Source: a virus
Virus record (IMG/VR): IMGVR_UViG_3300042467_002292
Coordinates: 1-23,652 of that record
DNA length: 23,652 nucleotides
Strand: one strand, 5' to 3'
Part shown: positions 4,029-22,666 of the stretch, piece by piece
Position numbering within the stretch: the stretch's first letter is position 1
How the letters are laid out: every line of letters begins with the position of its first letter
Made by a program: the position numbers and the translations under genes
Notes under the pieces: model-generated
Databases searched by the model: none
Told to the model about the DNA's origin: nothing
What the model saw: the letters and a program-made list of their open reading frames with translations, nothing else

Positions 4029-4117
4029 TTAATCGATAAGGATGATAGTTTTTTTAGACTGGCGGTTTTTTGGCTTTTCTTGTTGGTCGCTTTGATAAAT
4101 TATAACGGGAGTCTGAA

Positions 4118-4228: not shown

Positions 4229-4581
4229 AAGACCTATTGGGCAAGACTCTGAATAGACTGGAAGTTGATAGCGATGAGCTTGTTTTTTATACAACAGAAG
4301 GCAAAATATACAAGCTGTATCACGAGCAAGTTTGCGATGAATGTGTATACATCGAAAGCGTGCTGGGAGACTTGGACGATTTGGGTGGATCACCGATTAT
4401 TTTCGCTGAGGAAAGCACTAACCGAGAGCATCCAGAAGGCTACACGGCGAGTGAGCACAAAGAATCGTTCACTTGGACATTTTACGGGTTTGCCACGCTA
4501 AAAGGCTCCGTTGAGGTGCGCTGGCTAGGTGAGTCCAACGGATGCTACAGCGAGAGGGTGGATTTCACAGAGATTTGTTGA
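4216..4581 (+). CDS. DUF7448-like phage protein, 121 aa
   Basis: ATG 4216 with GAGGG (4204-4208) upstream. The sequence follows a pattern I recall from a widespread phage family (DUF7448). It opens with LLGKTLNRLEVDSDELVFYTTEGKIYKLYH. Next come a Cys pair in the region VCDECVYIESVLGDLDDLGGSPI and an end with FTWTFYGFATLKGSVEVRWLGESNG then YSERVDF. The length suits the family. Molecular role is unknown; these genes occur in accessory/early regions of phages. Family name is from memory, but the pattern fit is strong. Confidence 0.6.
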   Translation: MAEMKDLLGKTLNRLEVDSDELVFYTTEGKIYKLYHEQVCDECVYIESVLGDLDDLGGSPIIFAEESTNREHPEGYTASEHKESFTWTFYGFATLKGSVEVRWLGESNGCYSERVDFTEIC

Positions 4582-4624
4582 TTCTTATCTTTTAACAAAA
4601 TTGTTTATAAAATGTTTTTTTCAT

Positions 4625-5065
4625 ATGGTAATTATAGGCATTGACCCAGGCGAACAAACGGGGATAGCGATATTTAGAAACTTAAAATTAGCGTCTCTCG
4701 ACACAATCAAGCCAGAAGAAATTCAGGATTGGCTAACAGTGTTTCACGAGCGCGAGAAAATCGAGAGAGTAATCTATGAGGACAACAGATTGACTAGATT
4801 CATTTTTTCTGCGGCGAAGCACAACGATAAATCACCAGCATATGGGCGGAAAATTGCTAGAAACGTAGGCCAAAATGGAGCATGGGGGAAGGTGATTGAT
4901 TACACATGCGGAAAACTCGGCATTATATCTCACGGGATAAGTCCAAAGGGTAAGGGCGAGAAAATAAGTGCAGAAAAGCTATTCGAATTAACCGGATATG
5001 CCGAAAGTTCGAATCAACACAAAAGAGATGCGGCAATGGTTGTATTAAGATCAATAAGGTATTGA
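4625..5065 (+). CDS. RuvC-like Holliday junction resolvase (RNase H fold)
   Basis: 146 residues from ATG 4625. The frame extends upstream, but the protein fold begins at VIIGIDPG. Acidic catalytic residues fit a RuvC-type site: Asp7 in IGIDPGEQTG, Glu52 in VIYED, and His132/Asp135 in QHKRDAA. The central KGKGEKISAEKLF and NVGQNGAWGKVIDYTCGKLGI segments resemble the DNA-binding part of phage RuvC-like nucleases. It would resolve recombination and replication junctions before packaging, the role of RusA/Rap in lambdoid phages, and fits with NinB downstream. No Shine-Dalgarno is seen; a TATAAA at 4606-4611 could start a nearly leaderless transcript. Confidence 0.75.
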   Translation: MVIIGIDPGEQTGIAIFRNLKLASLDTIKPEEIQDWLTVFHEREKIERVIYEDNRLTRFIFSAAKHNDKSPAYGRKIARNVGQNGAWGKVIDYTCGKLGIISHGISPKGKGEKISAEKLFELTGYAESSNQHKRDAAMVVLRSIRY

Positions 5066-5089
5066 CATTATTTTTAATAATGTTATAAT
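5062..5089 (+). promoter_or_regulatory. Consensus promoter with 19-bp operator between -35 and -10
   Basis: TTGACA (5062-5067), 16-base spacer, TATAAT (5084-5089). A perfect palindrome, ACATTATT-TTT-AATAATGT (5065-5083), fills the spacer and overlaps the -35. The next gene (5122) encodes a winged-helix-type DNA-binding protein, so autoregulation is likely. Confidence 0.75.
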
Positions 5090-5121
5090 ATATTTTATAC
5101 TTAAAATTTTAAGGAATTAAA

Positions 5122-5409
5122 ATGCAAATAGTTAAAATGGTGCAAACGGATGAGCTTGTGAATATCGCCGAAGTGGCGAAAATGCTAGAGAAATCTGGGT
5201 TTAAGATGCGACAAAATACAATCAACATTCTAGTTGTTGGTGGTGTTTTACCGCAGCCTCAATTCTTTCAAAATCTTGATAAAAGGAAAAGATTTTTCAG
5301 GCGAGAGCACATTGAAAAAATAATTTCTTTTTTCGAGAAAGAAAATTCTAGCAAAGCAGAGATGCTGGCTAAAGATTTTGTTAAAAGCTTAAAAGAAGCT
5401 CAAAGCTAG
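5122..5409 (+). CDS. Winged-helix (MerR/AlpA-like) DNA-binding protein, 95 aa
   Basis: ATG 5122 with AAGGA (5111-5115) upstream. After a short lead, VNIAEVAKMLEKSGFKMRQNTINILVVGGVLPQPQFF looks like a helix-turn-helix followed by the wing of MerR/excisionase-type domains. An aromatic KRFFRREHIEKIISFF helix comes next, then a Lys-rich tail. The size is right for a phage regulator or excisionase. It sits 33 bases behind a promoter with a perfect 19-bp palindrome, so it probably binds there and represses itself. Target beyond that is unknown. The segment TTTTAAGGAATTAAA before the start (5107-5121) recurs at 6998-7012 before another small gene. Confidence 0.55.
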   Translation: MQIVKMVQTDELVNIAEVAKMLEKSGFKMRQNTINILVVGGVLPQPQFFQNLDKRKRFFRREHIEKIISFFEKENSSKAEMLAKDFVKSLKEAQS

Positions 5410-5418
5410 GGGGTTAGA

Positions 5419-5964
5419 ATGAAAGTAAAAAACATATATAAGAGAGAAGTTGTCTCGCCGATTGATATTTACGATATATTGAATGCTTATGGGGTGCAAT
5501 CTCACGCTGTAGGAGATGCGATTAAGAAGTTGTTAGTTGCTGGGCAAAGAGGCGCAAAATCTTATTCTCAAGATATAATCGAAGCTAGAGCTTCTATTGA
5601 TCGAGAGATTGAGGATATTGAAGCTTTAAACAAAGAGTCTACTGATGAGATAAAAGACGTGCGAAGTCTTCCGGATGATGCTGGGTTTGTTGATTATTCC
5701 GGCGTTAAAAGTCTTAAGTTTTTGTTTGTGCTTAATAAACACAAAGAAAAAAACGAAAGTGTGTTAAGGTGGGTCTTTGAGGCCAAAAAAATAGCACAAA
5801 AATTAAATGCTAATCAAAAAAAATATTTAAGCAAAAAAATAATTTCTAAAATCATAGAAGCGAAATTAAACGAAATTGGTGTTGTTGGAGTTTCAGGCAA
5901 GCCGATTAAGGCGGCAACGATAATGAGGGAATTTCTTTATTATTATGATGTTAAAAAGGCTTAA
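5419..5964 (+). CDS. Phage protein with conserved 'DIYDILNAYGV' N-terminal domain, 181 aa
   Basis: ATG 5419 with GGGGG (5409-5413) upstream. Residues about 14-70 follow a pattern common in phage proteins next to replication/recombination genes: PIDIYDILNAYGV, HAVGDAIKKLL, AGQRGAKSYSQDI, and a helical ...ASIDREIEDIE end. I know this only as a conserved phage segment without a function. The C-terminal 100 residues are Lys-rich, with a helical core (LRWVFEAKKIAQKL), and do not belong to the usual short version, so the protein looks extended. It is co-transcribed with the regulator upstream (9-base gap) and the dUTPase downstream (2-base gap). Confidence 0.55.
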   Translation: MKVKNIYKREVVSPIDIYDILNAYGVQSHAVGDAIKKLLVAGQRGAKSYSQDIIEARASIDREIEDIEALNKESTDEIKDVRSLPDDAGFVDYSGVKSLKFLFVLNKHKEKNESVLRWVFEAKKIAQKLNANQKKYLSKKIISKIIEAKLNEIGVVGVSGKPIKAATIMREFLYYYDVKKA

Positions 5965-5966
5965 AA

Positions 5967-6434
5967 ATGCTTACAATTAATTTTGTTAAAATAAATAAAA
6001 ACGCGCGTGTGCCAACAAGAGCAACACCGCTATCAGTTGGTTTTGATTTGTATGCGTGCATTGATGAAGGCGGCGGGACAAAATTTATTGATGTCGGTGA
6101 GACAGTCAAAATAGGTACTGGGATAGCGCTTGGATCGATGACTGATGGGGATAACATAGAGACACAGTATGGCGGGTTCGTGTTTGCAAGAAGCGGGCTT
6201 GCGACATCAAAAGGGTTAGCGCCTGCAAACAAAGTTGGTGTTATTGACGTGGACTATCGCGGGGAAATAATCGTTGCGATCAAAAATCATTCAAAATATT
6301 CACAAGTTATTAGCCATTGCGACAGAATCGCGCAGTTGGTGTTTATGCCGGTCATTACGCCACTATTTTTAGAGGTTGGTGCTATTAATGATACAGATAG
6401 AGGAAATGGTGGCTTTGGAAGCACTGGAAAATAA
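5967..6434 (+). CDS. dut: dUTPase (deoxyuridine 5'-triphosphate nucleotidohydrolase)
   Basis: 155 residues, the normal length for trimeric dUTPases. All five motifs are visible: motif 1 PLSVGFDLYA (about 21-30, Asp27), motif 2 FARSGLA (73-79), motif 3 KVGVIDVDYRGEI (89-101, with the catalytic Asp and the Tyr of the uracil pocket), motif 4 DRIAQLVFMP (119-128) and the C-terminal motif 5 RGNGGFGSTGK (145-155). It converts dUTP to dUMP and pyrophosphate, keeping uracil out of phage DNA and supplying dTMP synthesis. The region between motifs 1 and 3 (IALGSMTDGDNIETQYGG) is somewhat longer than in E. coli Dut. Start ATG 5967 lies 2 bases after the upstream stop. Confidence 0.95.
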   Translation: MLTINFVKINKNARVPTRATPLSVGFDLYACIDEGGGTKFIDVGETVKIGTGIALGSMTDGDNIETQYGGFVFARSGLATSKGLAPANKVGVIDVDYRGEIIVAIKNHSKYSQVISHCDRIAQLVFMPVITPLFLEVGAINDTDRGNGGFGSTGK

Positions 6435-6458
6435 ACATACCATAGCGCGATGATGTGG

Positions 6459-6556
6459 CACTCGTTTTTTTTTAAAAATTGAGGACGAGTGGTATACAAA
6501 AAGTTGCGGCTACAGGCGACTTGTCAATCATTGCACTGTAGCATTTATTTTTTTTA
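6459..6556 (+). ncRNA. Structured intergenic RNA with H-type pseudoknot and T-run
   Basis: CACTCGT (6459-6465) pairs perfectly with ACGAGTG (6485-6491) around an A/T-rich loop. Downstream, GTTGC/GCGAC (6503-6507/6516-6520, one G-U) forms a hairpin. Its 8-base loop contains GCTACAG (6509-6515), which pairs perfectly with CTGTAGC (6536-6542). The result is a classic H-type pseudoknot with loops of 1, 0 and 15 bases. Eight T residues follow (6549-6556). It may be a terminator for the dut transcript, a leader of ninB, or a free small RNA. The structure is seen; the role is inferred. Confidence 0.5.
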
Positions 6557-6592
6557 TATCTCAATAGCTAGATAAAAAAATCAGAGAACATT

Positions 6593-7003
6593 ATGGAAAA
6601 GATAAAACTTCTTTGCCAAAACAAAGATCAAACAAAAGCTGTTTTTAGGCAAATTTATGATATTGTCATAAATGAGGTTGTAAATGGTAATCACGTTGTT
6701 TTAGAAGCGAAGCCAAAAACACGATCATTAGAACAAAATGCGAGACTGTGGGCGATGCTATCAGACATTAGCGAGCAGGTTGTTTGGCATGGTAGAAAAC
6801 TGACGGCAGACGAATGGAAACATGTTTTCAGTGCAGCACTAAAAAAACAAGACGTTGTGCCAAGCATCGATGGGGGTTTTGTTGTTCTTGGACAATCAAC
6901 ATCAAAAATGACAGTGAAAGAAATGTGTGATATGCAGGAGTTGATGACGGCGTTTGCAGCAGAACGAAACGTTAAATTTAGATATAATTTTGATAATTTT
7001 TAA
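6593..7003 (+). CDS. ninB: NinB recombination protein
   Basis: 136 residues, close to the ~146 of lambda NinB (Orf). Characteristic segments include AKPKTRSLEQNARLWAMLSDISEQVVWHGRKLTADEWKHVF in the middle (the SLEQNA-x-LWA and W-K core), then a strand with STSKMTVKEMCDMQELMTAFAAERNV. NinB/Orf binds single-stranded DNA and can replace RecFOR functions in Red-type recombination, which fits the RuvC-like resolvase upstream. The start ATG 6593 has only a weak AGAGA ribosome binding site and follows the structured gap 6435-6592. Confidence 0.85.
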   Translation: MEKIKLLCQNKDQTKAVFRQIYDIVINEVVNGNHVVLEAKPKTRSLEQNARLWAMLSDISEQVVWHGRKLTADEWKHVFSAALKKQDVVPSIDGGFVVLGQSTSKMTVKEMCDMQELMTAFAAERNVKFRYNFDNF

Positions 7004-10872: not shown

Positions 10873-12483
10873 ATGAATAAAAAACGAGCAGCAGCAGGCA
10901 AAAAAAATAAATCACTGATTAACGCGAAGGCTTTGGCACAAAGCGGAAACACTGTTGTTAGATCATTCAACATGATTAATCAGAATATACCTCATTCGGA
11001 TTCAATTGTCGCCGACTTAAAGCCAGCGGTTGATCCTGTGGCTTTAGATAAGGCGATACACTCGCCAATCATAAGAAGTGGGATACAGGTATCCCAAAAT
11101 AGAGTGGTTGGGTCTAAATTCAGGTTGCAGTTAACTCCCATTGTTTCTTTTTTTAATGAAGAAGAAAAAAAAGAAATTTTGGCTTGGGCGTCAAAAGTTG
11201 AACGCATGTTTGACATGTACGCAAACTCGCCGGAAAAATACATAGATGCGGAGAGAAAACTTTCTTTCACAGAAATTCTAAGACAGACAGTTAGCCAAGA
11301 CTTGATTTTTGGTGAGCATTTTTTAATGCGCACAGAAAGAAAAAATTTAAAAATGGGTGTTGGTTTTTGCGTGCAAGGGATTGATCCTTGGCGCGTCAAA
11401 ACGCCGGTCGGTATAAGTGAAAGCTTTAACTTTAGGTTTGGCGTAATCAAAGATGAGCTAGGAGCGGCAAAAGCTTATTGTGTATACAACTCACTGCCGG
11501 AATTAATTGGTGCTTATTACGAACCTGAGAATTGGCGAATAATCAATAGAGAATCAACAATATTGATTAATGGCCGCGAGATTGACTTATTTAATATTTT
11601 GCATGGGTTTAATCAATTCAGACCTTCGCAAACACGAGGATATAGCGATATATCGACGATACTACCGTTAATTAAACAGCTTGATACGGCAAGAGGGTAC
11701 GCCCTTCAAAGTATGAATTTGGCGCTAAAGTACGCATTTTTTCTTGAGGCTGATCCTCAAACAGATTTAATGCGTGATGTTTTTCAGGCGAATTTAGAGC
11801 ACGGAGAAACAAGAAAAGACGATTATGGAGAGTCTCTTGTTGACTTGCAGGACTGGAATAAACTGTATTACGATCAATTTAAAACGAAATTTGATAGTGT
11901 TGATATTCCGCAACTGACACCGGGCGAGAAAATAAACGTACTGTCCCCGCATCAGAACGCGTTAAATGCGCACGGAATGATTCAAGATAACGTTTTTATT
12001 TTGGCGAAAATATTCGGACTATCTCAAGAATCGTTAACCGGCGATTTCAGGAATTCAAACTATTCAAGCGCTAGATTGAGTGAGGCTCTAACGTGGGAGG
12101 GGATCAAAGCAAAGCGCGAGGCTTCTGTTAATGTAGATGCAACCACTATTTTTAAAGGTTGGGCTGACGAAATGATGTTAAGGGGTCTATTGCCCTTGCT
12201 ACCAACAAGAGTTAACTATTGGGAAAAAAGAGACATTCTGCTAAACTGTGACTGGATTGGTGCGGGGAAAATAATAATTGATGAAAATAAATATGCATCT
12301 TCGGTTAAAACTATGTTAGAATGCAATGTAACTACGCTTAGAGACGTGCTTAATGAGCAAGGAAAAGATTTGGACGAAGTTTTAGAGCAACTCGCTTTTG
12401 AGGAATTGCGAAAAAGCGAGTTAGGGATTAAAGATGAGAATGGTCAAACAACAAACCAATTTTTTGATGTGGTAGGTGCATAA
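10873..12483 (+). CDS. Portal protein (lambda gpB family)
   Basis: 536 residues, as in lambda gpB (533). The dodecameric portal ring is the packaging channel and head-tail connector. Visible family features include an N-terminal basic segment, HSPIIRSGIQVSQNRVVGSKFRLQL, then DLIFGEHFLMRTER, GIDPWRVKTP, and HGFNQFRPSQTRGYSDISTILPLIKQLDTARGY (about 240-275). The LTPGEKINVLSP and the conserved NYSSARLSEALTWEGIK segment (396-412) lie towards the C-terminus. ATG 10873 follows gpW by 3 bases. The DNA for residues 397-412 is nearly identical to a piece of the tail assembly chaperone gene at 18908-18957. Confidence 0.95.
   Translation: MNKKRAAAGKKNKSLINAKALAQSGNTVVRSFNMINQNIPHSDSIVADLKPAVDPVALDKAIHSPIIRSGIQVSQNRVVGSKFRLQLTPIVSFFNEEEKKEILAWASKVERMFDMYANSPEKYIDAERKLSFTEILRQTVSQDLIFGEHFLMRTERKNLKMGVGFCVQGIDPWRVKTPVGISESFNFRFGVIKDELGAAKAYCVYNSLPELIGAYYEPENWRIINRESTILINGREIDLFNILHGFNQFRPSQTRGYSDISTILPLIKQLDTARGYALQSMNLALKYAFFLEADPQTDLMRDVFQANLEHGETRKDDYGESLVDLQDWNKLYYDQFKTKFDSVDIPQLTPGEKINVLSPHQNALNAHGMIQDNVFILAKIFGLSQESLTGDFRNSNYSSARLSEALTWEGIKAKREASVNVDATTIFKGWADEMMLRGLLPLLPTRVNYWEKRDILLNCDWIGAGKIIIDENKYASSVKTMLECNVTTLRDVLNEQGKDLDEVLEQLAFEELRKSELGIKDENGQTTNQFFDVVGA
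12060..12109 (+). repeat. 50-bp duplication, portal copy
   Basis: Identical in 49 of 50 positions to 18908-18957 (single difference G12080 against A18928), in the same orientation and reading frame. It encodes portal residues YSSARL(S)EALTWEGIK, a conserved part of the portal family, so this copy is most likely the original. Confidence 0.95.
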
Positions 12484-14077: not shown

Positions 14078-15195
14078 TGTCAACAATCACGTTAAATGGG
14101 GTACAAATCCCAAATTTAAGCCAAGTTATCATTCACAGTGCTTATAATAAAGCTAACGGCGAAATAAAACAGTCGTTGATAGATAATTGGCTATTGAACG
14201 CAGAAATGAGAGAAGCGTCAAAATTCATTAATCTAATGAAGGGCACAAGCTATATTGGAGACGCGCCTTATGTAGACGCGGTTAATACCCCACCCCCGTT
14301 TGCAAATCAAACAAGCGCAACAGTGAAAAGCGTTGAGATGCCTTATTTTCAATTTTCTCAACAAATTTTCGCGCATGATATTTTAACCAAAGCGCAACAA
14401 ATTGTTATGTCTAGCGGCGTTATGAGTAATGAATTAACGTACGCTCAAGCTTATGCTATTTGCGTGAACGATTCGCTACGAATTAATGTAATTGCGCATA
14501 ACAACCGCAAACGGAAAATGCTATCAGAAGTATTCACGACCGGCAAGTTGGTTATCGCTGGCACAGACCATGCGAAGCATAGAACTATCGATTTTGAGCG
14601 TGATGCGACGGCGACTTTTGCCCCATCGACGACATGGGATAACTCATCGGCAAATATCGTTGCTGACATTAAATCGATGATTGATATTTATCGCGGATTA
14701 AATGATAGATCACCACAAGCAATGCTTGTCAGGGCTGATGTTTACTCAGCGATGATCTCAAATGCTGGGTTCAAAGCTGAGTTTATTACGCCACACGCCG
14801 GAATTTCTGTGCAGAACATGCCTGCTTCATTAGTTAATGATGATTTATTTGGCAATTTGGCTATGCAGTTGCGAGGTGCGACTGGTGGCTCTTTGCTTGA
14901 TATTTGGGTTTACGATGCAAACTACATAGACAAAACAGGCGCTAAGCAATACATGTTGCCCAACGGCGGCGTTTATATGACTGAATATCCATCAGAATCA
15001 AGCTCTTATGTAGCCAGATTTAGCCCGATTGAAAACTTTAACGCGTTCAATTATTCTGCAGCTGAGGCGTTCACTCAAGTGTTGCCAAAAGACGACGGAA
15101 AAATGGTAGAGGTGTTATCGCAACAAGGTTTCTTAATTGTGCCTAACAACGTTAATTCCGTTGTTGGTGGCGCTAACTTTTTAGGGAGCATTTGA
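14077..15195 (+). CDS. Major capsid protein (gpE-like, HK97 fold)
   Basis: 372 residues (lambda gpE 341). ATG 14077 has a strong ribosome binding site, AGGAGG (14065-14070). Family signs: a helical N-arm, VEMPYFQFSQQIFAHDI after about residue 90, NDSLRINVIAHNNRKRKMLSEVFTTGKL (about 130-157), then DIKSMIDIYRGLNDRSPQAMLVRADVYSAMISN, and C-terminal PNGGVYMTEYPSESSSYVARFSP. It forms the icosahedral shell. No decoration or cleavage domain is fused. It is the best ribosome binding site in the operon, as expected for the most abundant head protein. Confidence 0.92.
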   Translation: MSTITLNGVQIPNLSQVIIHSAYNKANGEIKQSLIDNWLLNAEMREASKFINLMKGTSYIGDAPYVDAVNTPPPFANQTSATVKSVEMPYFQFSQQIFAHDILTKAQQIVMSSGVMSNELTYAQAYAICVNDSLRINVIAHNNRKRKMLSEVFTTGKLVIAGTDHAKHRTIDFERDATATFAPSTTWDNSSANIVADIKSMIDIYRGLNDRSPQAMLVRADVYSAMISNAGFKAEFITPHAGISVQNMPASLVNDDLFGNLAMQLRGATGGSLLDIWVYDANYIDKTGAKQYMLPNGGVYMTEYPSESSSYVARFSPIENFNAFNYSAAEAFTQVLPKDDGKMVEVLSQQGFLIVPNNVNSVVGGANFLGSI

Positions 15196-18376: not shown

Positions 18377-18388
18377 TTGGAGATAATT

Positions 18389-18757
18389 ATGGCAGGAAAA
18401 GTTTTAGTAAGCACAGTATCAATTTTTGGCAAAAATTATTCTCCAATTGATGGGATGGTTGGTATTACACCTGGTGGAATTATTAAAGAATCGGCAGGTA
18501 TACAATCGGATGGAAAAAATATCAAAGCGGAAAAGCTAAAAGCTACAGAGCTGTCAATTAAGATTGGTTATGATTCAACTCAAGATTACAATTCAGAGTT
18601 TTTGCTTGGCGTGGAGGGGGTTGTTCAACTTCTGTATAGAGATGGTCAAATCAAAACAATAACGGGATGCGCGATTAGTAATGTTGATGATGCGGATGAT
18701 GGTGTATTGACATTAACAATGACTTGTGATGCATTTATTGATAATTTGACCGCTTAA
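18389..18757 (+). CDS. Tail tube protein (Mu gpM-like)
   Basis: 122 residues (Mu gpM 118). ATG 18389 with TTGGAGAT (18377-18384). MAGKVLVSTVSIFGKNYSPIDGMVGITPGGIIKESAGIQSDGKNIKAEKLKATELSIKIGYDS and the C-terminal QIKTITGCAISNVDDADDGVLTLTMTCDA fit the PF10618 tube family, including the late G-C/A-x-x-x-x-x-x-x-DGV-x-L turn. It forms the inner channel for DNA. It follows the sheath by 12 bases. Confidence 0.88.
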   Translation: MAGKVLVSTVSIFGKNYSPIDGMVGITPGGIIKESAGIQSDGKNIKAEKLKATELSIKIGYDSTQDYNSEFLLGVEGVVQLLYRDGQIKTITGCAISNVDDADDGVLTLTMTCDAFIDNLTA

Positions 18758-18797: not shown

Positions 18798-18855
18798 TTT
18801 TAGCCTCCGCCTGCTTTTTTGCACAAATAAAAGGCTAAAAAACATAAAAAGGCTA
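18798..18855 (+). promoter_or_regulatory. Hairpin and alternative pairing at the chaperone start
   Basis: TTTTAGCCT (18798-18806) pairs perfectly with AGGCTAAAA (18832-18840). A second AGGCTA (18850-18855), which includes the AGG just before ATG 18858, can pair with the same TAGCCT strand. The two pairings exclude each other, so the first hairpin could free the start site and the second could block it. TAGCCTCCGCC (18801-18811) recurs at 19569-19579. A shorter GCGG/CCGC hairpin (18794-18797/18807-18810) overlaps. Confidence 0.45.
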
Positions 18856-18857
18856 TT

Positions 18858-19571
18858 ATGAAAAAGACTGAAAGAAAAGCGACCAACCAGAAAGGGTCTA
18901 TTTTAAGCTATTCAAGCGCTAGATTGAATGAGGCTCTAACGTGGGAGGGGATCAAAGAAAAAAGCAAAACTCCAACTGAAAAAACGACCAACCAAAACGA
19001 TCCACAATCAAAAAAAAATACACTGTCAATGCAATTGGATGAGCCGCTGAGGATTTGCGATAATGGCGGCAATACACTGCAAGAAATAAAAGTGTTAAAT
19101 TTTAAGCAAAACTTGACTGTGAAAGACATTATTCACGCAAACCAATTCTTTAATCTTGGTTTGGCGAGCGGCGCAATAAAAGATGTCGATCAAAACATGT
19201 TTCTTTTTAACTATTTTCAGTCATGCATACCTCTTCTTGATTTAACTTTGGGGGCGGATCAAAAAATCACTGGGACTGAGGAGGTTTTATTTAGCGATTT
19301 AGTTTATTTTGCGGGTGAAATTGCGCCAGAAATAATCAAGCAGAATTTTAAAACATCAAGTATTAAAGAGGCAGAAAAAATTGTGTCAAAATTTAGACCG
19401 ATTGCATCAGTAATGCGAGACATTAAAAAAAGCTCTGATGACTTTGTTGGGATTGGAGCAGAAATTCTTGAAAAATGCTTAGTGGTTGACTTAGATAAAA
19501 TAAAACCTGATGTTTTTTTAGCATGTTGCTATAAGCTTGTTGAGGTTTGTAGAGTAAAAAAGACACAATAG
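18858..19571 (+). CDS. Tail assembly chaperone, short (unshifted) form
   Basis: 237 residues. The part from about residue 58 (MQLDEPLRICDNGGNTLQEIKVLNF...) is a helical chaperone of gpE/Mu gp41-like type: an NFKQNLTVKDIIHANQF segment, then helices, including DLVYFAGEIAPEIIK near the middle. The first 57 residues are extra: Lys/Thr/Asn-rich, containing YSSARLNEALTWEGIK (18-33) copied from the portal gene. ATG 19029 would skip that part but has no ribosome binding site. Between tube and tape measure genes, such chaperones coat the tape measure before the tube forms. A -1 frameshift near the end makes a longer form. Confidence 0.8.
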   Translation: MKKTERKATNQKGSILSYSSARLNEALTWEGIKEKSKTPTEKTTNQNDPQSKKNTLSMQLDEPLRICDNGGNTLQEIKVLNFKQNLTVKDIIHANQFFNLGLASGAIKDVDQNMFLFNYFQSCIPLLDLTLGADQKITGTEEVLFSDLVYFAGEIAPEIIKQNFKTSSIKEAEKIVSKFRPIASVMRDIKKSSDDFVGIGAEILEKCLVVDLDKIKPDVFLACCYKLVEVCRVKKTQ

Positions 19572-19711
19572 CCTCCGCCGTTGGCTTCTTGATGGTTGAG
19601 GCTGGGGTACAGCCGAGTGAGTTATTAAGAATGACAAATGAGGAGCTTTTGTTTTTTTACAACTCGGCTGTGAAATATTTGAAATTGAAAGCAAAAAGCA
19701 ATGGCAAATGA
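18858..19711 (+). CDS. Tail assembly chaperone, long -1 frameshift form (GpE-like C-terminus)
   Basis: Reading shifts by -1 at A-AAA-AAG (19556-19562): join of 18858-19562 and 19562-19711, giving 284 residues. The 49 added residues, ending ...AGVQPSELLRMTNEELLFFYNSAVKYLKLKAK..., have the P-S-E-L-x-x-M-x-x-x-E-L signature of phage P2 GpE-like proteins, which are made in the same way. The frame has no start signal of its own and runs 11 bases into the tape measure gene, so frameshifting is the natural way to express it. In known phages a small share of long form binds the tape measure. Confidence 0.8.
18880..18994 (+). repeat. Direct repeats flanking the portal-derived insert
   Basis: CGACCAACCA occurs at 18880-18889 and 18985-18994, each preceded by a related ACTGAAA... 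context, so the protein reads TERKATNQ and then TEKTTNQ. The portal-like segment lies between them. Confidence 0.7.
18908..18957 (+). repeat. 50-bp duplication, chaperone copy
   Basis: 49 of 50 identical to portal gene positions 12060-12109, in frame. It codes for residues 18-33 of the chaperone. Beyond both ends similarity falls quickly, though neighbouring codons differ mostly by single bases (for example GCA AAG CGC against GAA AAA AGC), so the original copy may have been a little longer. Confidence 0.95.
19542..19602 (+). promoter_or_regulatory. Programmed -1 ribosomal frameshift site
   Basis: Slippery heptamer A-AAA-AAG (19556-19562), in the right phase (codons GTA AAA AAG), with the 0-frame stop TAG 7 bases on. 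GAGGT (19542-19546) lies 10 bases upstream and can act as the stimulating internal Shine-Dalgarno. GCCTC (19571-19575) pairs with GAGGC (19598-19602), 8 bases after the heptamer; GGCTG/CAGCC (19600-19604/19610-19614) is an alternative hairpin. Confidence 0.85.
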
Positions 19712-21407
19712 AAGAAAAGTACCATTTATAATCACGGCTGATGACCAAGCCAGCAAAAAGTTTGATGGGTTAAAGTCTAAGGTTGGCGGCCTTGACGGTG
19801 CATTTGGCAAGCTTTCTAATTCTTTATTAAGTAAATTTTCCCCACAAATGCAAGGTGCTTTGTTTGGACTTGGTGGAGCAATAGGAAACTTAAAACAAAA
19901 AATGTCAAATATCCCTGTTTTTCAGGGAGCGGTAATTGGCGCGGGCTTGGCCATGACAGCAAAAGGATTGGTGGATAATGCTGTCGCAACAACAGATCAG
20001 CTCGGACGATTAAACGATTTGAATCAAATGTACGGCATATCAACAGATTTGTTGCAATCGTATTCAGTTGTTGCCAAAGCAAGCGGAACAGACATAGAGG
20101 CCGTAGCGAAAAGTTACGGGAAGTTAAAAGAAAATCTACTTGCAGCGCAGCAAGGTGATCAAGCAAAAATTCTTGAATTTAGGGCGGTTGGAATTACTGC
20201 CGATGACCTAAAAAAACCGTCTGAGGATGTGATGGCTAAAATAGCCACCGTGTTTAAAGAATCAACAAAAGACATGGACGATGAGCTAAAAAGCACATTT
20301 GCAAAGCAAATTTTTGGCAAGGCAGGCGCGGACATCATCCCATTTTTAAATGAGGGTGGCGCTAAATTTAAGGAAACAACAGAATTGCTGAGAAAGCAAA
20401 ACAGGTTGTTTTCGGGTGAACAAATAAAGCAGGCCGATGAGGTTGGTGATAGATGGGCAGACTCTGTTGATAAAATAGGCAATTTAAAACAAAAAATCGG
20501 TATAGCGATGTTGCCCATGTTAACATCAATGAGTGATGCGATAGATAAGGCATTTGACTCAAAGCAGAACCCAGAGTTAGTTAAAACTTTTGAGCAATTA
20601 GGAAAATCAATCGGTGAGAGCGCACCAAAAATAATAGAAGCTTTACCACAAATCATAGAAGGACTTGCAAAGCTGATAGAAAAGCTTGTAGAGATTGGTG
20701 ATTTTGTTGGTTGGGATAATCTTGTTTTGGGTAGTGCTATTTTGTTTGCCGCGCCATTTGCGGCATCAATGCTAGACATAGGGGTTGCGATTTTCGGCGT
20801 TGTAAGAAAATTAGGTGTATTGATCGCAACCAACGCAGTTGTTGCCGCTTCTAACGCTGGCTTGACAATATCGTTTTATTCTGTTAGTTATGCTGCCGGT
20901 GCAGCATGGGCGGCCATAACTGGCCCTATAGGCCTTGTTATTGCAGCAATCGCATTAGTTGGAACTGGGATTTATTTAATCTGGAAAAACTGGGATACGG
21001 TCAAAGAGTATATTGATATAGTCTGGACGGCGATTAAAATGTTTGCGGCTGACGCGTGGGAGAGCTTGAAAAATATAGGAAAAGGTATTGTAGAGTTTCT
21101 TTTGTCTCCATTTAACAACTTGATAGATGTTATTAACTTGGCTATAGAGGGTTTTAATTCAATAAGCGGCACAGAAATAAAATTAATCCCAAAAATTGAA
21201 CCTTTTGCTAATGAATCAGGCTTGCCGATGCAAACAATATCAGATTCTAGTCTTGGTGGGGCGGTCTCTGCCGCTCAAACACAAAAAATAGAATCAAAAG
21301 TTGGCGGAGAGTTAAAAATATCAATTGACAACCCAGCCGCGAGGGTAGACAATATTAGTACAACGCCAAACTTTGGCTTAAAAGTTAATACTGGGGCTGT
21401 TTTATGA
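19701..21407 (+). CDS. Tail tape measure protein
   Basis: 568 residues from ATG 19701, inside the end of the long chaperone form. N-terminal half is helical with the usual FIITADDQASKKFDGLKSKVGGLDGAFGKL start. The repeated pattern YGISTDLLQSYSVVAKASGTDIEAVAKSYGKLKENL and FAKQIFGKAGADIIPFLNEGG (about 105-220) matches the phage tail tape measure family. Hydrophobic segments lie at about 341-368 and 374-428 (...GPIGLVIAAIALVGTGIYLIW). At about 0.15 nm per residue the tail would be near 85 nm. The protein sets tail length and leaves the tail with the DNA. Confidence 0.9.
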   Translation: MANERKVPFIITADDQASKKFDGLKSKVGGLDGAFGKLSNSLLSKFSPQMQGALFGLGGAIGNLKQKMSNIPVFQGAVIGAGLAMTAKGLVDNAVATTDQLGRLNDLNQMYGISTDLLQSYSVVAKASGTDIEAVAKSYGKLKENLLAAQQGDQAKILEFRAVGITADDLKKPSEDVMAKIATVFKESTKDMDDELKSTFAKQIFGKAGADIIPFLNEGGAKFKETTELLRKQNRLFSGEQIKQADEVGDRWADSVDKIGNLKQKIGIAMLPMLTSMSDAIDKAFDSKQNPELVKTFEQLGKSIGESAPKIIEALPQIIEGLAKLIEKLVEIGDFVGWDNLVLGSAILFAAPFAASMLDIGVAIFGVVRKLGVLIATNAVVAASNAGLTISFYSVSYAAGAAWAAITGPIGLVIAAIALVGTGIYLIWKNWDTVKEYIDIVWTAIKMFAADAWESLKNIGKGIVEFLLSPFNNLIDVINLAIEGFNSISGTEIKLIPKIEPFANESGLPMQTISDSSLGGAVSAAQTQKIESKVGGELKISIDNPAARVDNISTTPNFGLKVNTGAVL

Positions 21408-22666
21408 CGTGGCGAGATAATTTATTAGAGGCCAAGCTTGATGGTTTTCCCATCAAGATAGGGGCTGTTGATTTTCAAGAGGGAAACAATGTTGTTGTGC
21501 ATGAGTTTCCTTATCGAAATAAAGTTGTTGTTGATAATTTAGGCAATAAGGCAAAAACTTTATCAATCACAGTTTATTTTGATTCTAATGAAAGCAATGG
21601 GTTTAATTATTTGGCAGAAGCAAATAATTTTCGTGCAATTCTTCATGATAATGACGAAGACAAAGAGCTTGTTCACCCAACAGACGGCATCATTTATGGC
21701 AAAATAAGCGATGTTTCGCAAACAATTGACACATCGCAACAGGGTGGTTTGTCGATCATACAGTTCACTTTTCATGTAAACGGTGGTATCGACTATGATG
21801 TTGTATCTATTGACACAGGCGATCTGGTTAATGATGCGGTAGGTGATGCGTATGATTCAATAGAGAATGATTTTGTAGAAAATTTCGATACAGAAAATTA
21901 TCAAGATTTTGTGTTAAACGATGCCGTAAAATTGATAAGCAAAGCTAGAGAGACAATCAGAACGGCGAATAAATATGCATCAATAGCAGCTCAAATTGCT
22001 GATGGTAATTTAAACACTTTACTTGGTAGCGGTGAACTTGGGCAGGCGCTAGGAATAACACAAGCACAATCGTTAGCCAGCTCTTTTGTTTCGCTTGTTA
22101 AAGAAGCGCAACAAGTTGATGATTTATTAAAATTTGATGTGATTTTAAACGGCAAAAAAACAAAAGCAAGAAAGCAGCAAGATTTAAATTCTTTGTCAAT
22201 TCAAAGCCTTGTTCAAACTGCTTCAATTGTGAGATATGCTCACTTAGAGTCTGATTTTAACGGTGATTTGAGGTATGATGCTGGGTCTACCATCACGATG
22301 GGGACGCCAAAATTATTAACGATAGCAGAAGCGAATTATAGAATTTATAAAGTCTTTAATTTGCTTGATAGCGAAATAGAGAGACTGTCAAACTCAGGCC
22401 AATTTGACGACACTCAGGCTGCATTGCAAACCTTAAAATCAGTAGTTATTCAAAGAATGAAAGCGTTAAGCGAAAACAGCTTGAGAACTTTTTACACAAA
22501 TTGTTGCGACGGGACACACGTAAATGGAATTATGCCAAGCGCTGTCATTGCTTATAGATTTTATGAAAATTTATCTGATGACGCTATCATAGCAAGAAAT
22601 AACATAGAAAATCCATGCCTTGTGCCTAAAAATGCGCTGTTGGAGCTTGTTGATTATGACAATTAA
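21404..22666 (+). CDS. Mu gpN-like tail/DNA circularisation protein
   Basis: 420 residues, start overlapping the tape measure stop by 4 bases. The N-terminal ~120 residues match the DNA_circ_N pattern (PF07157): WRDNLLEAKLDGFPIKIGAVDFQEGNNVVVHEFPYRNKVVVDNLGNKAKTLSITVYF, then ELVHPTDGIIYGKISDVSQ. The rest is helical. The family name comes from Mu protein N, which was first linked to DNA circularisation but is now known as a baseplate/tail-tip component under the tube. The place between tape measure and gpP is as in Mu. Confidence 0.88.
   Translation: MTWRDNLLEAKLDGFPIKIGAVDFQEGNNVVVHEFPYRNKVVVDNLGNKAKTLSITVYFDSNESNGFNYLAEANNFRAILHDNDEDKELVHPTDGIIYGKISDVSQTIDTSQQGGLSIIQFTFHVNGGIDYDVVSIDTGDLVNDAVGDAYDSIENDFVENFDTENYQDFVLNDAVKLISKARETIRTANKYASIAAQIADGNLNTLLGSGELGQALGITQAQSLASSFVSLVKEAQQVDDLLKFDVILNGKKTKARKQQDLNSLSIQSLVQTASIVRYAHLESDFNGDLRYDAGSTITMGTPKLLTIAEANYRIYKVFNLLDSEIERLSNSGQFDDTQAALQTLKSVVIQRMKALSENSLRTFYTNCCDGTHVNGIMPSAVIAYRFYENLSDDAIIARNNIENPCLVPKNALLELVDYDN

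Follow-up and report, generated by a model that had tools for sequence, protein, structure and literature searches.

Near-identical portal-gene DNA in the leader of a probable tail assembly chaperone gene of an uncultured phage: probably a recent templated copy

How does a piece of a portal gene come to lie, in frame and almost unaltered, near the beginning of a gene that most likely encodes a tail assembly chaperone (TAC)? The question is raised by one contig of an uncultured phage, from which alone the case is known, namely an IMG/VR virus record of 23,652 bases that was analyzed over its whole length (henceforth, the window). Profile matches in the window were obtained to a GpA-type terminase, a lambda-family portal, an S49 protease, and capsid E, as well as to a Mu-like sheath, a tape measure, and a DNA circularisation protein. 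The portal gene (ORF 10873–12483, + strand) is matched by PF05136 and, in the PDB, by lambda portal B. The recipient ORF (18858–19571, + strand; a zero-frame product of 237 aa) is adjoined upstream by a probable tail tube gene (18377–18757, + strand), which has no profile match and is assigned only by its position after the sheath, and downstream by the tape measure gene (19701–21407, + strand), which falls in PHROG tape measure families. Searches with peptide patterns in viral contigs, with tblastn in phages, and with terminase, portal, and peptide queries returned either no close relative or distant ones only, the best of which share at most 45% identity in the terminase and at most 36% in the portal; nothing close was found with the sheath among 369 genomes of one class, or with the portal among 399 genomes of one order. 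A resolvase candidate, a dUTPase, and a NinB/Orf-like recombination protein are clustered upstream of the head genes (window 4529–7003); the window encodes recombination functions, and none is tied to the portal-copy event.

The match reported in the initial annotation was reproduced in full: positions 18908–18957 and portal positions 12060–12109 agree in 49 of 50 bases, on the same strand and in the same codon phase of both ORFs. The two copies are offset by 6848 nt; a single G-to-A difference divides the match into identical stretches of 20 and 29 nt, and the match extends to 60 nt (18902–18961) if four mismatches are allowed. By comparison, when sequences were simulated 60 times from an order-3 Markov model of the window, the longest exact repeat was 14–20 nt; when the window was tiled in 394 segments of 50 nt, the two copies scored 40 and 46, and the next best score was 18. 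The match is far above chance level, and a search of the window against its own record recovered the same pair with no third copy. A hazard of a 6.8-kb deletion follows from such a direct repeat, albeit as a putative one only.

The direction of copying is indicated by the protein sequences. The segment inside the portal gene (12060–12109, + strand) encodes YSSARLSEALTWEGIK and coincides with the Y-S-x-A-R...W motif that is invariant in lambda-family portals, while the copy within the chaperone leader (18908–18957, + strand) encodes YSSARLNEALTWEGIK. The peptide, YSSARL(S/N)EALTWEGIK, falls on the conserved NYSSAR motif when aligned with these portals, lambda portal B included, and five aligned portals all share its Y, S, A, R, and W. 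Because the peptide lies at a conserved portal motif and the relatives' chaperones are without it, the portal is, by this comparison, the donor. The two peptides differ in one residue only, the portal having S where the chaperone has N; the underlying base difference is non-synonymous, and since other portals carry S or G at this place, the change probably arose in the chaperone copy.

The recipient is most likely a TAC on account of its position, its slippery site, and its frameshift extension. As in phiNP and in L175 (IMG/VR contig 3300042541_001972, the nearest syntenic relative found), it lies between the probable tube gene, itself assigned by position, and the tape measure gene. A canonical slippery sequence, the heptamer A AAA AAG (19556–19562, + strand), stands in the zero-frame register and is a candidate -1 frameshift site; it is followed after 6 nt by a predicted stem-loop (19569–19604, + strand), whose z-score is only -0.9 against shuffles, and by a predicted -1 frame extension of 49 codons and a stop (19562–19711, + strand) that overlaps the start of the tape measure gene. 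This extension resembles L175 positions 14310–14375 (E = 0.002; shared GVQPSE...MT). The recipient protein itself had no match in Pfam, in PHROGs, or, by tblastn, in phage records; it gave no hit to the Phage_TAC_7 (PF10109) profile at E up to 5, and an hhalign comparison of its main domain with PF10109, using seven members, returned a probability of 0.14 %, so that membership of PF10109 is not claimed for a main domain without profile similarity. No significant BLASTP match to the L175 chaperone was obtained either (E = 0.28). A single-sequence AlphaFold model of the chaperone reached a pLDDT of 40, and about 30 at the peptide; it was uninformative and was set aside.

The copy is housed in an N-terminal leader of 57 codons rich in K, T, N, and Q (18858–19029, + strand), which reads MKKTERKATNQKGSILS, YSSARLNEALTWEGIK, and EKSKTPTEKTTNQNDPQSKKNTLS in order and is not seen in the chaperones of relatives. 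Within it, the copy is set in an A-rich, low-complexity linker between two imperfect direct repeats, the left one ACTGAAAGAAAAGCGACCAACCAGAA (18867–18892, + strand) and the right one ACTGAAAAAACGACCAACCAAAA (18975–18997, + strand), for which the local alignment score was matched by 1 of 2000 shuffles. The repeats stand in the same frame, as their spacing is 108 nt. Over about 26 nt they show one mismatch and gaps that add up to 3 nt, and being more diverged than the copy (1 in 50), they may be older than it. At the junctions, four of six bases are alike to the left of the copy (TTCAAA/TTTAAG), and the right side gives no clear match. Three further candidates were rejected: a possible second scrap in the leader at 18876–18893, which agrees in 17 of 18 bases with upstream non-coding positions 4076–4093 on the opposite strand, is probably due to chance, about 3% of 50-nt tiles equalling it; an 11-base word, TAGCCTCCGCC, at 18801 and 19569 is of a length expected by chance; and a diversity-generating retroelement was dismissed, the single mismatch giving no adenine-specific pattern.

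Whether the leader is translated bears on how the copy is read. The ATG at 18858 is preceded by a Shine-Dalgarno-like AAAGG and the ATG at 19030 by no similar sequence; this difference, together with the frame kept by both the copy and the flanking repeats, favours translation from 18858. A start at 19030, which would leave the copy in an untranslated 5' leader, agrees with the chaperones of relatives, whose starts are near the position equivalent to residue 58 or later, and with an open leader frame that could arise by chance in 12–25% of cases and is weak evidence alone, but the Shine-Dalgarno-like sequence and the maintained frame speak against it, and it is considered unlikely.

Among the relatives compared, the leader is peculiar to this contig. 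It is missing from the TACs of nine relatives, and in eight of these a PF10109 chaperone occupies the same place, with the domain beginning within the first 3–24 residues and with at most about 23 residues ahead of it (in this comparison, the reading of L013 began 11 codons ahead of its ATG). The window and L175 share the portal, protease, capsid, sheath, chaperone with a -1 extension, tape measure, and hub in the same order, with proteins 26–36% identical; the L175 chaperone, in contrast, is 157 aa long with neither a leader nor a portal peptide, and its likely slippery site is CCCAAAG rather than A AAA AAG. On two points raised by the initial annotation, an ORF motif scan of 165 related loci found the portal peptide in no other chaperone, and the chaperones of relatives begin close to the place that would be equivalent to residue 58 or a later one. 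The leader DNA is contained in none of the phage and plasmid records searched, and, within the sensitivity of the searches, viral contigs did not yield the portal peptide.

A single contig, with a leader that has no independent record in the collections searched, invites the suspicion that faulty metagenome assembly or a chimeric library molecule produced the second copy. However, the copy is an island of 50 nt within one continuous ORF, and an assembly error is the less likely because the frame is intact on both sides; moreover, a misjoin would normally run on into portal sequence and not return, and the copy differs by one base from its source and sits between in-frame repeats. An artefact is accordingly regarded as quite improbable.

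The identity of the two copies could alternatively reflect function. The initial annotation had proposed that the chaperone now imitates a portal surface, and such a peptide might let the chaperone engage a partner of the portal and so link the assembly of head and tail; indeed, conservation within the portal motif is highest in the copied residues, all but one of which are intact. Yet no more than the beginning of a single portal segment is present, away from the portal oligomer and amid low-complexity sequence, the peptide is absent from the chaperones of all relatives, and the single change is non-synonymous, which makes this reading hardly credible. An elaborated form, in which the chaperone or its frameshifted product would bind the portal partner and tie tail-tube initiation to head completion while gene conversion keeps the identity, is held to be just as remote. 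It is also highly improbable that the 50 bases act as DNA or RNA in both places, for example as a binding site or through antisense pairing, with selection or gene conversion maintaining their likeness: the DNA identity is high and the leader RNA could fold, but that fold is no better than shuffles (z -0.6), the portal segment is accounted for by its protein motif, and the window holds no third copy. Mimicry, a function at the DNA level, and an artefact are each less likely than a templated copy.

The observation of portal DNA in the chaperone gene is confirmed as real, and its cause is likely ordinary. About 50 portal bases were probably copied once and recently by templated illegitimate recombination into the tolerant chaperone N-terminus of a phage with a Mu-like tail. 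A replication fork would have taken up the portal gene as its template and then returned; alternatively, a short portal-derived single strand may have annealed during replication. In the former route, the fork would leave the leader, copy about 50 nt of the portal, and re-enter upstream of its exit point, thereby duplicating about 25 nt, so that the flanking direct repeats would be made in the same event as the copy; the in-frame repeats on either side fit such a copy-out-and-return with duplication. The product would be a 57-residue leader rich in K, T, N, and Q that carries a 16-residue portal peptide. Since neither the main domain nor the -1 frameshift, which would append the C-terminal extension, is disrupted, the leader would be tolerated and nearly neutral. 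The copy may have been inserted or may have replaced earlier sequence, the searches having yielded no close relative. Of the proposals of the initial annotation, that of recently copied portal DNA is supported, with 49/50 identity in a leader without counterpart in the TACs of relatives, and that of an accident of recombination with a tolerated extension as its outcome is the best reading. If real, this would be a fresh case of short templated copying between virion genes of one phage; such copying may supply new peptide segments and would become invisible after the copies diverge, and the chaperone N-terminus, which varies in length among relatives, would be a permissive place for such scraps.

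Repeats were also surveyed in the 165 related loci (2.79 Mb), mostly of distant phages, a sample that is small and does not provide a rate. No near-exact long-range repeat was recognised there as one coding gene copied into another; the repeats encountered included tRNA-end sequences resembling attachment sites, terminator-like or other intergenic elements, a 530-bp repeat, and a few short unclassified ones. The 530-base direct repeat (529/530), in the Duodenibacillus prophage locus L103, occupies 20398–20927 and 21289–21818 near the locus end, in the region expected to hold the tape measure gene. Perfect direct repeats of 45–48 bases, about 11 kb apart and resembling tRNA 3' ends, occur in L155 (8260/19413), L157 (7069/18107), and L159 (7968/18892) and are likely prophage attachment sites. 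In L120, a Rhodocyclaceae prophage, a 45-base element that contains an inverted repeat, and is near-identical at both sites, precedes two different genes (12336–12380 and 20483–20527) and is possibly regulatory.

With respect to known systems, the gene position and the -1 extension before the tape measure gene are those of TACs of the Mu gp41/P2 E type (PF10109), whereas the protein in the window is more than twice as long and is without profile similarity to them. As for the event itself, Harms et al. 2016 (PNAS 113:15066) reportedly described the substitution of short intragenomic DNA segments by double illegitimate recombination in Acinetobacter baylyi. Unlike that case, the copy described here belongs to a phage, lies in frame in a structural gene between imperfect direct repeats, and is known from sequence alone; like those patches and like template-switch insertions, it has no long homology at the target, spans tens of bases, and has its donor in the same genome.
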